Shown piece after piece: positions 21,164 to 38,033 of a DNA stretch of 64,000 nt (its first letter is position 1; every line of letters begins with the position of its first letter). The DNA comes from Glycocaulis abyssi. GTDB lineage: Bacteria > Pseudomonadota > Alphaproteobacteria > Caulobacterales > Maricaulaceae. The notes beneath the pieces are model-generated. The model saw only the letters and a list, made by a program, of their open reading frames with translations. It was not told the origin of the DNA and did no database searches. The stretch is from the NCBI RefSeq assembly GCF_041429775.1, contig NZ_CP163421.1, forward strand, positions 372,001 to 436,000. Direction: 5' to 3'. The position numbers and the translations under genes are program-made.

Positions 21164-21931
21164 TTGGTACTTGATGTCCAGGCACTGACCAAAACCTTCC
21201 CCGGCGGCACGCTGGCCGTCGATGCGGCAAGCTTCACCGTGCGCGAAGGCGCGTTGCTGGCGCTGGTGGGCGAGTCCGGTTGCGGCAAGACGACCACGCT
21301 GAAAATGATCAATCGCCTGCTGGAGCCGAGCTCCGGCACGATCAGCTTCAAGGGCGAGGATGTGACCGCGCTGGACGCCGTCACCCTGCGCCGCCGCATG
21401 GGCTGGGTGATGCAGGGCGACGGGCTGTTTCCCCATTTCACCGTGGCGGAGAATATCGCGGTCACGCCGCGCCTTGCGGGGTGGGATGCCGAGCGGACAC
21501 GGGCGCGCATCAGTGTGCTGCTGGAACTGGTCCAGCTTGACCCTGCAGAGTTTGAAAACCGCTATCCCGCAGAGCTGTCCGGTGGCCAGCGCCAGCGTGT
21601 GGGCCTTGCCCGCGCGCTTGCCGCCGAGCCGCCCCTGCTGCTGATGGATGAACCGTTTGGCGCGCTGGACCCGATCACGCGCGACAGCTTGCGCGAGGAC
21701 GTTCAGGCTTTGCGCGCCCGGCTGGGCTTTGCGGCTGTCATGGTGACGCACGACATGGCGGAGGCGCTGCTGCTGGCCGATGAGATTGCCGTCATGCGTG
21801 ACGGGCGCATCATCCAGCTTGGCACGCCCTCGCAGCTTCTGTCCGATCCGGCAGACCCGTATGTGGAGACCCTGCTGGCCACACCACGCCGGGAGGCTGA
21901 ACGCGTGGCGGCTCTGTCGGGGCAGGGATGA
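21164..21931 (+). CDS. Glycine betaine/choline-type ABC importer, ATP-binding subunit
   Basis: 255 residues with Walker A GESGCGKTTT, Q-loop in VMQGDGLFPHFTV, signature LSGGQRQRVGLARAL, Walker B LLLMDEPFGALD and switch His in VMVTHDMAEA. The FPHFTVAENIAVTPRLAGW region is characteristic of OpuBA/OpuCA/OsmV-type ATPases. It starts at a TTG (21164), the only start compatible with a full N-terminal strand. The next gene, a fused permease/binding protein, overlaps it by 4 bp, so these two genes make a complete importer. No CBS domains are present. Confidence 0.9.
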   Translation: MVLDVQALTKTFPGGTLAVDAASFTVREGALLALVGESGCGKTTTLKMINRLLEPSSGTISFKGEDVTALDAVTLRRRMGWVMQGDGLFPHFTVAENIAVTPRLAGWDAERTRARISVLLELVQLDPAEFENRYPAELSGGQRQRVGLARALAAEPPLLLMDEPFGALDPITRDSLREDVQALRARLGFAAVMVTHDMAEALLLADEIAVMRDGRIIQLGTPSQLLSDPADPYVETLLATPRREAERVAALSGQG

Positions 21932-23493
21932 TGGAGGCGCTCGCCCAGCCCTTTGCCCTGCTGCCGGAATATCTGGGCGGGCATTTGCGTCTGTCTCTGG
22001 GCGCCATGGCGTGCGGCCTGCTCATCGCCTTGCCGCTGGGCGTGCTGGCGGCGCGCAACCGGGTGATTTCCGGGCCGGCGCTGGCCGTTGCAGGCGTGTT
22101 TCAGACCATTCCTGCCCTGGCGCTGCTGGCCCTGATGGTGCCGCTCCTTGGCGGGCGTATCGGCTTCCTGCCAGCCTTCACCGCGCTCACGCTCTATGCC
22201 GTCCTCCCGGTCCTGCGGAACACGATAGTGGGGCTTCAGGGCGTTGATCCGGTGGTGCGCGAGGCGGCGCGCGGTGTCGGCATGACGCGCCTGCAAAGCC
22301 TGCTGCGTGTTGAGCTGCCGCTGGCCCTGCCGACCATGATGGCGGGCGTGCGCACGGCGTCGGTCTGGGTTATCGGGGCGGCGACGCTGGCCACGCCCGT
22401 GGGGGCAGCCTCGCTGGGTAATTACATTTTCTCCGGCCTGCAGACCCGCAACTGGACGCTGGTCGTGTTTGGCTGTGTGGCTGCCGCCCTCTCGGCGCTT
22501 GTTATCGATGGACTTTTAAAGCTGATGGAAAGCGCCGCGGCGCGCCGGAAGGCGGGCAGGGCGCTTGTTGCCGGGGCGGGGCTGGCGATGATTGCCGCGC
22601 TAGCGCTCGTGCCTGCGGGCGTATTGGCAGGGCCATCAGGGGCGAATGGCGCGCGCGCTGACCGGGGTGTGCACGCAGGCGGATTTGGTGAGCAGCCCGT
22701 CACGGTCGGCGCGAAGGCTTTTACCGAGCAGTATATTCTCGCCGGCCTGTTCGAAGAGGTGCTGGGCGATGCGGGCGCGCAGGTGCGCCGCCGGGACAAT
22801 CTGGGCTCCACCGTGGCCTTTGATGCCCTCATTTCCGGCGAGATTGATGTCTATGTGGATTATTCCGGCACGCTATGGGCCACGATCATGCAGCGCGAGG
22901 ACATGCCCGGACGTCATGTCATGCTGGCGGAGATCACCAGCTGGATGTGGACGCGCCACCGCGTGCTGGTTCTGGGCGCGCTGGGCTTTGAGAACGCCTA
23001 TGGCATCGCGGTAAGCCAGGCGGCGGCAGAGCGTCATGGCCTTGCCTCCGTAGGCGATCTGGCCAGGATTGACGGGCTGTCCATCGGCGCAGACTCAGAG
23101 TTCTTCGCCCGCGCCGAATGGACGGGCCTGCGCGACACGTATGGGCTTGGCTCTGCGCGTACCCGCTCCATGGATTCCACCTTCATGTACGGCGCGGTCC
23201 GTGATGGCGAGGTGGACGCCATCACCGCCTACACGACGGACGGGCGGATATCGGCGTTCGATCTGGTGATACTGGACGACCCGGCGGGGATATTGCCGCC
23301 CTATGACGCGCTGGTGCTCATCAGCCCGTCCGCTGCTGGCCGGCCTGCCATTGCTCAGGCGCTGGCACCCTTGCTCAACGCGATAGACGCCGATGCCATG
23401 CGCGAGGCGAACGGTGTGGTCGATCTGGAGCGGCGCTCCGTCGGCGAGGCGGTGGAGCGTCTGCGCGCGCGCCTGGAGCGTTCCTCACCCTGA
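21928..23493 (+). CDS. Fused ABC importer permease and substrate-binding protein (OpuBC-OpuBB type)
   Basis: 521 residues. Residues 1-215 are a binding-protein-dependent permease with helices and the EAARGVGMTRLQSLLRVELP coupling loop. Residues about 250-521 are an OpuAC/OpuBC binding domain starting PVTVGAKAFTEQYILAGLFE, with SGEIDVYVDYSGTLWATIM typical of osmoprotectant (QAT) binding proteins. Between them, helix LVAGAGLAMIAALALVPAGV passes the domain to the periplasm. Such fusions are known in the quaternary-amine uptake family. Ligand could be betaine, choline, carnitine or proline betaine. Confidence 0.92.
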   Translation: MMEALAQPFALLPEYLGGHLRLSLGAMACGLLIALPLGVLAARNRVISGPALAVAGVFQTIPALALLALMVPLLGGRIGFLPAFTALTLYAVLPVLRNTIVGLQGVDPVVREAARGVGMTRLQSLLRVELPLALPTMMAGVRTASVWVIGAATLATPVGAASLGNYIFSGLQTRNWTLVVFGCVAAALSALVIDGLLKLMESAAARRKAGRALVAGAGLAMIAALALVPAGVLAGPSGANGARADRGVHAGGFGEQPVTVGAKAFTEQYILAGLFEEVLGDAGAQVRRRDNLGSTVAFDALISGEIDVYVDYSGTLWATIMQREDMPGRHVMLAEITSWMWTRHRVLVLGALGFENAYGIAVSQAAAERHGLASVGDLARIDGLSIGADSEFFARAEWTGLRDTYGLGSARTRSMDSTFMYGAVRDGEVDAITAYTTDGRISAFDLVILDDPAGILPPYDALVLISPSAAGRPAIAQALAPLLNAIDADAMREANGVVDLERRSVGEAVERLRARLERSSP

Positions 23494-23608: not shown

Positions 23609-24361
23609 TTACAGCACGTCGAGCATCGAGGCGACGAGCGGGTGACGCACGATGTCCTTGGCTTCCAGCCGGACAACCGCGATATCCTCCACCTCTTCAA
23701 GGCGCTCGCAGATATCCTTCAGGCCGGACATTTCCGGCAGCAGGTCGGTCTGCGCCGGATCGCCTGTGACGACCATGGTGGAGTTCCAGCCCAGACGGGT
23801 CAGCAGCATTTTGAGCTGGCCGTAGGTGCAGTTCTGGGCCTCGTCGACGACGATATAGGCGTTGTTGAGCGTGCGCCCGCGCATATAGGCAATCGGCGCG
23901 ATCTCGATCAGCCCCTCGGCCATCAGCGCTTTCAGGCGCTTGGGGCTCAGCCGGTCTGCCAGCGCGTCGTAGAGCGGGCGCAAATAGGGCGCGAGCTTTT
24001 CTTCCAGAGCGCCGGGCAGGAAGCCGATATGCTCGCCTGCCTCCACCGCCGGGCGTGACAGCACGATGCGCCCCACCTGGCCGCTCTCCAGTGCTTCCAC
24101 CGCCTTGGAAACGGCCAGATAGGTCTTGCCGGTACCGGCCGGCCCCATGGCCATGACAAGATTGTGGTCGTCTATCGCCGTCATCAGCCGCGCCTGCCCC
24201 TCAGAGCGTGGCTTGACGTTCTTGATATAGCGCTGGTCCCGCATGGGTTCATTGTCGTCAGGTGACCAGTTCGTGCCGGGGAAGAGGGCGCGGACCTTCT
24301 CTTCCTCATAATGCTCGGCATTGAACCCGCCCTGACGGCGTTTTGCGGTGCGCTTGCTCAT
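23609..24361 (-). CDS. phoH: PhoH family ATPase
   Basis: 250 residues. Basic N-terminus (MSKRTAKRRQGGF), then a P-loop ATPase of superfamily 1-like fold: Walker A GPAGTGKTYLAVSKAVEAL, RIVLSRPAVEAGEHIGFLPG, Walker B YIVVDEAQN, and sensor VVTGDPAQTDLLPEMSGL. This short form, alone and not next to miaB-ybeY, corresponds to the second PhoH class; PhoH proteins are linked to RNA metabolism and phosphate starvation but the exact role is unsettled. CGGAGGA precedes the ATG at 24361. A strong terminator-like hairpin lies only 20 bp before the start codon. Confidence 0.88.
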   Translation of the reverse strand: MSKRTAKRRQGGFNAEHYEEEKVRALFPGTNWSPDDNEPMRDQRYIKNVKPRSEGQARLMTAIDDHNLVMAMGPAGTGKTYLAVSKAVEALESGQVGRIVLSRPAVEAGEHIGFLPGALEEKLAPYLRPLYDALADRLSPKRLKALMAEGLIEIAPIAYMRGRTLNNAYIVVDEAQNCTYGQLKMLLTRLGWNSTMVVTGDPAQTDLLPEMSGLKDICERLEEVEDIAVVRLEAKDIVRHPLVASMLDVL

Positions 24362-24707
24362 GTTGGCGTCCTCCGGACAAGAAAAAACCCCTCGCGCGGG
24401 TGCACAAGGGGCGGACAAAAGCGATGAAGGCTGGACAGGGCAGATGCGGAGCGCGCGGTGGAACCGTCCGGGTCTGGCGTTGGCGGTGCATACGGCATGG
24501 TGCCGCGGGCCTCCGTGCAAGAAGCGTCTATCCCTCACGATCGATCCGAAGACACCACCTTGGCGGCTGTTCCCCTCTCGAATCGCATCTACAGTCTCAT
24601 GCTAAGACAGTGAACGAATTATGAGTCAGTCCGTCGCTGAAACTTCACATCCAACCGATGCAGTTTCGCCACGCAATGCTGACGCAGCGAGCAGGAAGGA
24701 ACACATT
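24362..24707. other. 346-bp divergent spacer between phoH and gamma-carbonic anhydrase
   Basis: No protein gene is supported. On the minus strand the spacer ends in a hairpin with a T-run (24382-24411) just before phoH. The DNA between about 24412 and 24600 could encode a small RNA or an untranslated leader; I see no tmRNA, SRP RNA, RNase P or known riboswitch signature in it. Confidence 0.5.
24382..24411 (-). terminator. Terminator or attenuator hairpin in phoH leader
   Basis: Read on the minus strand: CCCCTTGTGC, loop ACCC, GCGCGAGGGG, then TTTTTT. Ten consecutive pairs (two G-U) and a T-tract make a strong Rho-independent terminator. Its position, 20 bp before the phoH ATG, means that it ends an upstream transcript or conditionally blocks phoH. 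Confidence 0.75.
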
Positions 24708-25229
24708 ATGGGCGTTTACGAGCTGGACGGGGTTCGTCCGAAGATCGGCGAGGGTGTGTGGATCGCGCCGGGCGCCACGGTGCTGGGCCGCGTCACGCTG
24801 GGGCGCAATGTGTCGGTCTGGTTCGGGGCGGTGCTGCGCGGCGATGTGGAAGACATCGTGATCGGCGATGACACCAATATCCAGGACGGCACGGTCATCC
24901 ATGCCGACCCGGGCAAGCCAACCATCCTTGGCAAGGGCATCACGGTTGGCCATCAGGCCATGCTGCATGGCTGCCAGATTGGCGATTACTCGCTGGTGGG
25001 CATTGGCGCGACCATCCTCAATGGCGCGAAAATTGGAAAGAACTGCCTCATCGGCGCGCATGCCCTCATCACCGAAGGCAAGGAGGTACCGGACAATTCC
25101 ATGGTGCTGGGCTCACCGGGCAAGGTGGTGAAAACGCTCGAAGAGGGTATGGGCGACATCTTCAAGGCCAGCGCCGACCATTATGTCGCCAATGCGAAGC
25201 GCTTTGCGGAGGGGCTGAGGGAGGTTTGA
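24708..25229 (+). CDS. Gamma-carbonic anhydrase family protein (YrdA/PaaY-like)
   Basis: 173 residues folding as a left-handed beta-helix: hexapeptide repeats run from [15 protein letters not shown] to [16 protein letters not shown]. The metal-ligand histidines of the family are in [24 protein letters not shown]; the [16 protein letters not shown] stretch is the family hallmark. Start at 24708 follows AGGAAGGA; upstream in-frame ATGs lack a site. Family members are carbonic anhydrases or thioester-associated proteins, and activity is not predictable. A head-to-head repeat pair follows the stop. Confidence 0.9.
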
Positions 25230-25244
25230 GGGGGTAGGGCTAGG

Positions 25245-25346
25245 CCCTCGTCCTTCGAGACGCTCACTTCGTTCGCCCTCAGGATGAGGGCCTAACGTTT
25301 TTCCCTCATCCTGAGGAGCGCGTAAGCGCGTCTCGAAGGACGAGGG
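25245..25346. repeat. Family A repeat pair 1, head-to-head
   Basis: Two inverted copies (25245-25290 and 25303-25346) separated by 12 bp. Each has the core CTCGTCCTTCGAGACG, a variable hairpin and CTCAGGATGAGGG. The pair lies between convergent genes and can form one large cruciform or a bidirectional transcription end. Similar pairs occur at 28322-28428 and 58953-59049. Confidence 0.9.
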
Positions 25347-25355
25347 AAAACAAAT

Positions 25356-27434: not shown

Positions 27435-28310
27435 ATGGGCGTTTCAACTCGATACGCAAAAGCGTTCGGCGCGGTGATCGCGGCGACCTTTGCCAGCGCA
27501 GCGGCCGCCGCTGCGGCACATGCCGGGCCGACGCCGGTATCACCGCCGCCGCCCAGCCATCATTGCTGCCAGCACGGGCACGGGCCGCAAGTGCGCGCGC
27601 CCTCGATCCGCATTGGCGGACCATCGGTTCATATTGGCGGGCCGCGCATCAATATCGGCGGCATCTATCTGAATAATCAGGTCAATGTGAATGTGAACGC
27701 ACAAGCCTCTGCCATGGCGTTTGCTGGCGCGCAGGCCAGCAGCAATACAATCGTGTATGGCGGGGGCGGTTTCATCTCGCGCGGTGCCGCCCCGGCAGCG
27801 ACCGCCATTGCGGGCCTGGCGCTCGCCGATGAGTATGAGATGGAAGAGGAAAGCTATTCGCGGATGGTAGAGGGCTGGCGCGTGGTGCGTGCGGTCTGCA
27901 TCGATGACCGGGGTACGCCGCACCCGGCCTCCCGCCCGGAACGCGATGAGCGCGTGCGCGAAGGCTTTGAGGGCGAGATTTTCCGCTGCATGGCCGGCAC
28001 CACGCTGCAGGCAACGCTGGGCCATCGTCTGGAAAGCGGCGATGACAGTTTCGAGGATGGTCAGGTCATCCAGTGCCAGCGCGGCGATGCGCTGCGTTAC
28101 GGGCGCGGCGGGGAGGTGTTCTGCGCCCCCGCAGAGGCCATGCGCGACTGTAACGAACGCTCCCTGCTACGCCTTTACGGGCCGGGCGTGCGCCTTGTCT
28201 ATGTGCGCTTTGAAGAGCGCTACACGGCGATGCGCGAGCGCCGCAGCGCGCGCCGCACCGCCACCAGCCTCAACCTGATGCTCGATGGCGGCGTGGGCGG
28301 GTATCACTAG
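27435..28310 (+). CDS. Secreted protein of unknown function with low-complexity N-terminus
   Basis: 291 residues. A signal peptide (FGAVIAATFASAAAAAAAHA) is followed by a Pro/His/Cys stretch (PPPPSHHCCQHGHGPQVRAP), imperfect IGGP repeats (SIRIGGPSVHIGGPRINIGG), an Asn/Ala-rich section, and from about residue 150 a folded domain with several cysteines (AVCIDDRG, IFRCMAG, VIQCQRGD, VFCAPAEAM, DCNERS). The HHCCQHGH cluster could bind metal, but that is speculation. Start at 27435 follows GGGAGTG. No family recognised. Confidence 0.72.
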   Translation: MGVSTRYAKAFGAVIAATFASAAAAAAAHAGPTPVSPPPPSHHCCQHGHGPQVRAPSIRIGGPSVHIGGPRINIGGIYLNNQVNVNVNAQASAMAFAGAQASSNTIVYGGGGFISRGAAPAATAIAGLALADEYEMEEESYSRMVEGWRVVRAVCIDDRGTPHPASRPERDERVREGFEGEIFRCMAGTTLQATLGHRLESGDDSFEDGQVIQCQRGDALRYGRGGEVFCAPAEAMRDCNERSLLRLYGPGVRLVYVRFEERYTAMRERRSARRTATSLNLMLDGGVGGYH

Positions 28311-37956: not shown

Positions 37957-38033
37957 GCGCCCGTAGCTCAGCTGGATAGAGCACCAGACTACGAATCTGG
38001 GGGTCAGGAGTTCGAATCTCTTCGGGCGCGCCA
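37957..38033 (+). tRNA. tRNA-Arg (anticodon ACG)
   Basis: 77 nt with encoded CCA. Acceptor GCGCCCG pairs with CGGGCGC, D arm GCTC...GAGC, anticodon stem CAGAC/TCTG around ACG (ACTACGAAT), T arm with GGTTCGAA-type loop (AGTTCGAATCT), discriminator G. It decodes CGN arginine codons after A34 deamination. An integrase remnant lies 44 bp downstream in convergent orientation. Confidence 0.97.

Follow-up and report, generated by a model that had tools for sequence, protein, structure and literature searches.

The phoH gene of Glycocaulis abyssi is probably controlled by transcription attenuation coupled to translation, of the pyrBI type, as judged from a window of 64,000 nucleotides (positions 372,001 to 436,000 of contig NZ_CP163421.1) and from the corresponding loci of its relatives. 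This reading is supported by an intrinsic terminator before phoH, a coding leader ORF, an overlap of this ORF with the phoH start, a conserved GATTCG site, an enrichment of polyproline motifs and the absence of an antiterminator. The features concerned, numbered from the first letter of the window, are the following.

23609..24361, minus strand: phoH, 250 aa, PhoH-like ATPase (Pfam PF02562, E 7.7e-83)
24358..24498, minus strand: leader ORF, 46 codons and TGA, MPYAPPTPDPDGSTARSASALSSLHRFCPPLVHPREGFFLVRRTPT (ORF reading; coding tests on relatives)
24370..24374, minus strand: phoH Shine-Dalgarno GGAGG (direct reading)
24382..24412, minus strand: intrinsic terminator, hairpin 24412-24387/24388 and U-run 24387-24382 (terminator scan; conservation; covariation in the Brevundimonas-type group)
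24510..24514, minus strand: leader ORF Shine-Dalgarno GGAGG, 11 nt before the ATG, which is slightly long (sequence reading)
24579..24585, minus strand: CGATTCG, extended GANTC motif (GcrA/CcrM type) at the predicted transcript start (conservation and published motif)
24599..24604, minus strand: -10-like hexamer TAGCAT of the putative leader promoter (direct reading)
24623..24627, minus strand: GACTC, second GANTC site, ~ 35 nt upstream of the predicted start (direct reading)
24708..25229, plus strand: gamma-carbonic anhydrase-like gene, divergent, bounding the leader (protein match)

The phoH leader in the window and among relatives

On the minus strand, 24412-24387 reads as the hairpin GCCCCTTGTGC-ACCC-GCGCGAGGGGT, for which the hairpin scan gives 11 pairs (7 G-C, loop 4) when the first U of the run is counted as paired, and 10 pairs followed by six U when it is left out of the stem. 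The folding energy of the 26-mer hairpin is -19.9 kcal/mol. The T-run occupies 24387-24382 and the phoH ATG 24361-24359, with 20 nt between them. Hence the scan and the coordinates (end of the U-run at 24382, ATG at 24361) bear out the original prediction of a hairpin with a 10-bp stem and six T's on the minus strand, 20 bp before phoH. The hairpin alone is unremarkable, given that 2 terminator-like sites were found in 2 kb compared to 1.3 in shuffles, and the whole 271-nt leader does not fold better than its shuffles (z 0.48), 132 of 200 of which fold equally well or better. Since the scan excess was small and the leader fold was no better than that of shuffles, the question was put to relatives, and it is the conservation among them, not the window alone, that places the hairpin beyond chance.

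The terminator is located inside the leader ORF, between the promoter-like site and phoH. The ~ 200 bp upstream had been described as gene-free, which is wrong, as the conserved 46-codon ORF and the GATTCG site are found there. The leader peptide begins MPYAPPTPDP..., its residues REGFF are encoded by the 3' arm of the hairpin and the U-run, and the stop codon TGA overlaps the phoH start codon (ATGA). A frame from GTG 24538 (309 aa, in frame with phoH) was rejected as an N-terminal extension in the window; it is closed in the close relatives L003 and L004 and open in L005.

Of 101 related loci, 5 were too short for the orientation of the neighbour to be tested; in all of the other 96 the gamma-carbonic anhydrase gene is divergent from phoH, so that no upstream gene reads into the hairpin and its interpretation as the terminator of an upstream gene was rejected. 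A count by longest ORF gave 33 of 98 neighbours as co-directional, compared to 96 of 96 divergent in the protein-based repeat, and the 33 are attributed to antisense ORFs that overlie this gene in the GC-rich DNA. In Rfam, neither the leader nor the surroundings of phoH in 20 relatives gave a match at the gathering score, in agreement with the earlier impression that the leader holds no known RNA family; the sub-threshold matches (E 0.76 to 8.4) are to unrelated families and were discarded. Matches elsewhere were to a tRNA in the window, and to tmRNA and tRNA in the relatives, away from phoH.

The first set of relatives comprised 111 loci obtained by a scan of genome contigs and a family search, and leans to close relatives since the contig scan supplied the best 80 of 544. 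Leaving out 8 loci with upstream DNA identical to another, L002 (a second PhoH-like gene) and L091 (a misplaced start) gave 101 loci. Besides phoH, the genome of G. abyssi has another PhoH-like gene, with 52% identity over 199 residues. Among the matches listed, the nearest named locus is that of Oceanicaulis sp. HLUCCA04, whose PhoH is 98% identical; other relatives are Maricaulis, Marinicauda, Brevundimonas, Caulobacter, Asticcacaulis and Hyphomonadaceae. An order-level sample consisted of 150 genomes at least 90% complete, 137 of which have phoH at E 1e-85 or better.

By a fixed rule, 81 of the 101 distinct related loci carry a terminator within the 150 nt that precede phoH (9.2 expected). 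In the order-level sample, a hairpin with a U-tract is present in the last 120 nt at 101 of 137 phoH loci, compared to an expectation of 13.4 summed over families: 18/19 in the window's family, f1 (1.6 in shuffles), 30/30 in f2 (4.8), 30/30 in f3 (2.6), 18/30 in f144 (2.6) and 5/28 in f145 (1.8). Three families thus carry the terminator generally and f144 in part, whereas f145 mostly lacks it. Side by side, most relatives end with a hairpin and T-run directly before the phoH Shine-Dalgarno, and the stem sequence varies by group (CCCCTC...GAGGGG, GGCGATGC...GCATCGCC, GCCGCC...GGCGGC). Furthermore, in 16 hand-picked Brevundimonas-type hairpins of the same length, 5 of 11 pairs are changed on both sides with 98.9% of cells paired, which none of 500 shuffles reach; alignment A2 was not counted because its stem arms are badly aligned. 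Beyond the order, a terminator lies no more than 150 nt from phoH in 13 of 27 loci from other Alphaproteobacteria (1.8 expected). Five of these 13 (L114-L116, L119, L135) also show a Shine-Dalgarno-led ORF that reaches the phoH start, a count made without a null and thus carrying no chance expectation; in L119 it reads VPQNSVVKREFSPPG... across the terminator, and its stop lies 5 nt ahead of phoH. An ORF over the terminator may thus be an older arrangement, or one that has arisen more than once.

Among the 101 order-level loci with a terminator, 73 have a Shine-Dalgarno-led ORF whose end falls at -12 to +10 relative to phoH or which continues into phoH in frame, compared to 16.8 expected by shuffling, and 28 have none. 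Stops at +8, +4, +1, -1 or -3 account for 50 of the 73, in-frame fusions for 18, and ends at -5 to -12 for the other 5. A qualifying ORF is also present in 16 of 36 loci without terminator (3.4 expected), mainly in f144 (8/12), fused to phoH; given this and the 28 loci with a terminator alone, the two are not strictly linked. Peptides of relatives read MPSAPPNRDIPPPG..., MTSLRPSPPGSSG..., VSRSVPRREAPPIEPL... and MVQRPFLTPTPPGPS.... In phoH genes that open with ATGG and not ATGA, the stop codon is often found immediately ahead of the start (TGACATGG, TGATGG) or shortly within the gene (ATGGGTAAG). Frame shifts in the leader ORF are seen in L014, L062, L064 and L048. Where Brevundimonas-type loci have gained a second hairpin, the reading frame of the ORF is mostly preserved across it, with start offsets larger by 36 or 39 nt (L054, L057, L066, L075, L081, L093 and L095; the exception is L064).

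Given that frames are often open by chance in GC-rich DNA, substitutions were tested. In 46 disjoint pairs, L048 being excluded from the pairwise codon tests, substitutions at codon positions 1/2/3 number 219/189/270 (p 1e-4, indicative, as are all p values here, since pairs and loci are related), while the leader before the ORF has no phase bias (69/74/65). The mean BLOSUM score of changed codons is 1.08 in frame compared to 0.07 and -0.09 in the other frames, and 159 of 498 changed codons are synonymous in frame compared to 101 of 514 and 83 of 495; frame 0 was picked because it is open, which biases the stop counts of the BLOSUM/phase test. The fused group displays no clear third-position bias (66/74/61; second test 54/50/57). 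Together, the substitution patterns indicate that the leader body is coding.

In the f144-type loci, the leader ORF is often fused in frame to phoH (L148, L155, L156, L165, L167, L180, L185, L194) with the conserved extension VG.RRK..A..PPPG...DDS...FFD.P.GRSRA..., some of them without a recognisable terminator. In this group, phoH may be made in two lengths.

The promoter-like site

Transcription of the leader would start at about 24589-24593. A scan for the sigma-70 consensus gave no promoter at the leader site. At a distance of exactly 13 nt upstream of [CT]GATTCG, TAGNAT is found in 47 of 81 motif-bearing related loci and 23 of 67 in the order sample, and TANNN[TC] in 72/81 and 40/67 respectively. 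GATTC is a GANTC site, the target of CcrM. The interval 100-300 nt upstream of phoH contains [CT]GATTCG in 80 of 100 related loci (6.8 expected; L091 is kept in this count and two short loci are lost) and in 8 of 27 loci of other Alphaproteobacteria (1.4 expected). In the distant Alphaproteobacteria it is observed 136-177 nt before phoH, in L118, L120 (also at 276), L122, L123, L124, L128, L137 and L138. Hence a site of the methylation type may date far back in the history of phoH promoters. Within the order sample it is found in 19/19 loci of f1, 29/30 of f2, 15/28 of f145, 4/30 of f3 and 0/30 of f144; being rare in f3 and absent in f144, it is not obligatory for the attenuator. The GACTC site is, by eye, also present in Maricaulaceae relatives (uncounted).

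The extended motif of GcrA is given as TGATTCG or YGAKTCK in a study of Brevundimonas subvibrioides, and B. subvibrioides itself is described, in the portion of that study available here, as having no extended preference beyond a slight one for C before GANTC (PMC7987155). GcrA is encoded in the genome of G. abyssi, and by its extended GANTC site the putative phoH leader promoter may be of the GcrA/CcrM type; among the papers searched, none linked GcrA, CcrM and phoH. Close to GATTCG, a 5' hairpin is folded in many Maricaulaceae leaders. Its covariation is weak, with double changes in 1 of 11 pairs and 86.4% paired in 8 hand-picked sequences of the same length, and this signal is confounded with GANTC palindromes.

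Proposed control of phoH and its alternatives

Between the ORF start and the hairpin, 52 of the 73 peptides contain a motif from a list of strong-stall motifs, where shuffling of the amino acids gives 26.1 (at most 36 in 500 shuffles), and PPP or PPG is present in 42 of 73 (13.4 by shuffling, maximum 22); as related sequences are counted repeatedly, these comparisons are not probabilities. PP precedes the hairpin in 55 of 73, the last one at a median of 45 nt from it (quartiles 42 and 53.5) and within 15 nt in 1 of 55 only. This is too far for a stalled ribosome to cover the hairpin, so that stalling should favour termination. The ORF of the window has one PP before the hairpin (APP, codons 4-6), and EF-P is encoded in the genome. 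Polyproline in the 5' arm of the hairpin (CPPL in the window) was considered as a hairpin blocker and dropped; it is not kept in Brevundimonas-type loci. An antiterminator, for which covariation among relatives had been suggested as a check, was sought by a duplex test, and there is no sign of one: in 101 loci the 5' arm shows no excess complementarity to the preceding 110 nt, with a mean z by family of -0.42 to 0.61 and 3 of 101 below -2. TTTT before the hairpin is enriched (33 of 101 loci compared to 11.4 expected; 11/18 in the window's family) but not general.

Given that no antiterminator was found and that an ORF extends over the terminator, the pyrBI model fits these leaders. We infer the transcription and translation of the parts, the direction of control and a polyproline/EF-P signal from sequence, and the proposed course is as follows. 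Transcription would start near 24590, at the conserved promoter with its GANTC methylation site, and ~ 90 nt later a ribosome would begin the leader ORF, cross the terminator and end on the phoH start codon. A pioneer ribosome close behind the RNA polymerase would cover the hairpin RNA, allowing the polymerase to read into phoH, whose translation is perhaps coupled by way of the stop-start overlap. If the ribosome were late or slowed, for example at the polyproline motifs, the terminator would fold and an RNA of ~ 210 nt would be released. PhoH would thus probably be made only when ribosomes keep pace with RNA polymerase. It is also conceivable, though we would rather doubt it at present, that the leader is a natural polyproline sensor, in which PPG, PPP or APP ~ 45 nt before the in-ORF terminator gauges the pace between ribosome and polymerase and reports it to phoH. 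The quantity gauged would be EF-P, charged tRNA-Pro or elongation speed, the promoter would be timed by methylation in some families, and the leader ORF would be a conserved feature of four out of five families in the order sample.

The original prediction left a choice between the end of an RNA gene and premature termination before phoH. The second is favoured, since a transcript from the conserved promoter-like site has to pass the hairpin on its way to phoH, the hairpin lies within a coding ORF and the upstream gene points away in all 96 loci tested, but the prediction had missed that the leader is coding. A leader-derived small RNA with a role in trans is possible, because the terminated RNA of ~ 210 nt would arise under either reading. 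That this transcript acts chiefly in trans, with phoH expressed by partial read-through, seems unlikely to us: the conserved start motif (80/100), the 5' hairpin of many Maricaulaceae leaders and the terminator give the typical outline of a small RNA, but its body is coding, its ORF is tied to the phoH start and double changes affect only 1 of 11 pairs of the 5' hairpin. Equally improbable is classical attenuation of the opposite sign, as in mgtCBR, in which a stall at proline codons would block the terminator through an alternative fold and turn phoH on. The enrichment of polyproline motifs and the rather constant distance of PP, where present, from the hairpin would suit such a stall, yet the 5' arm shows no excess complementarity to the 110 nt before it, and PP is too distant to cover the hairpin itself.

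There is very little probability, in our estimate, that the ORF encodes a functional microprotein, or in the fused lineages an N-terminal extension of PhoH, with the terminator tuning the ratio of products. Conservation at the amino-acid level and the f144-type in-frame fusions, whose extension is conserved even where the terminator is lost, speak for it. However, groups that differ in hairpin sequence also differ in the C-terminal part of the peptide, the position of the stop is kept at the phoH start, and 46 proline-rich residues would be unlikely to fold.

The comparison of translation-coupled attenuation at phoH with known systems relies on the portions of the cited papers available here. 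In E. coli pyrBI (pyrL), as in the phoH leader, an intrinsic terminator lies in a translated leader ORF just before the gene (PMC4824070, PMC5021804); the ORF is of 135 bp there (PMC4824070) and 141 bp here. No antiterminator is described as needed for pyrBI (PMC4824070, PMC5021804), and none was found in the phoH leader. Terminators near the end of a translated ORF are suppressed, and ribosomes seldom catch the polymerase in the first ~ 100 bp unless it pauses (PMC4824070). Moreover, a polyproline stall upstream of the pyrL terminator gives more termination without EF-P (PMC5021804). This synthetic E. coli reporter has its parts in the same order as the phoH leader, which, unlike the built construct, is natural, conserved and known here from sequence alone (PMC5021804). 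Like the phoH leader, mgtP of Salmonella mgtCBR is a short leader ORF rich in proline codons before a regulated gene, but it has 17 codons and alternative stem-loops and its stalling turns the gene on (PMC3641672), whereas the phoH leader has no detected antiterminator. In another alphaproteobacterium, Sinorhizobium meliloti, translation of the duf1127 leader ORF likewise sets premature termination; however, there the uORF has no reported intrinsic terminator, termination is probably by Rho and uORF translation favours it (PMC12218461). Within the same order, the ilv leader of Caulobacter crescentus shows transcription attenuation by a leader ORF, and leader peptides of this species were detected by ribosome profiling; the ilv case is of the amino-acid stall type, and the main text, as far as available, does not name phoH (PMC4117421). 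A literature search of main texts turned up no description of a leader ORF or attenuator for phoH, and the leader-peptide tables of PMC4117421 may list one. The phoH leader would therefore work like pyrBI and differ from it in gene, lineage, polyproline motifs, the overlap of stop with start and probably the absence of a general U-rich pause tract; a pyrimidine signal is not evident.

PhoH proteins are widespread and their purpose is not clear. If phoH is switched by the pace of translation relative to transcription, its job would probably lie in translation or RNA quality control and not only in phosphate starvation. The leader would then extend the pyrBI mechanism beyond enterics as a natural, conserved example, and would be a natural counterpart of the polyproline-terminator arrangement built as a reporter (PMC5021804, as far as available).

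Other elements of the window

The intergenic stretch 25240-25350 contains a large inverted repeat, made of two opposed copies of a sequence around CCTCATCCTGAGGAGC ... CTCGAAGGACGAGG. Allowing up to 2 mismatches, the window holds 3 copies of the repeat 16-mer (0.02 expected), and the genome has 7 exact ones compared to 0 for the control, so that it is a dispersed repeat. ARAGORN places a tRNA-Arg(acg) at 28070-28139 that Rfam does not confirm at the gathering score and that is probably spurious, and another tRNA-Arg(acg) at 37957-38033 that Rfam confirms (37957-38030). A single ORF at 21928-23493 combines an ABC transporter permease domain with a glycine betaine-type substrate-binding domain, and its ATPase gene, at 21164-21931, adjoins this fusion.
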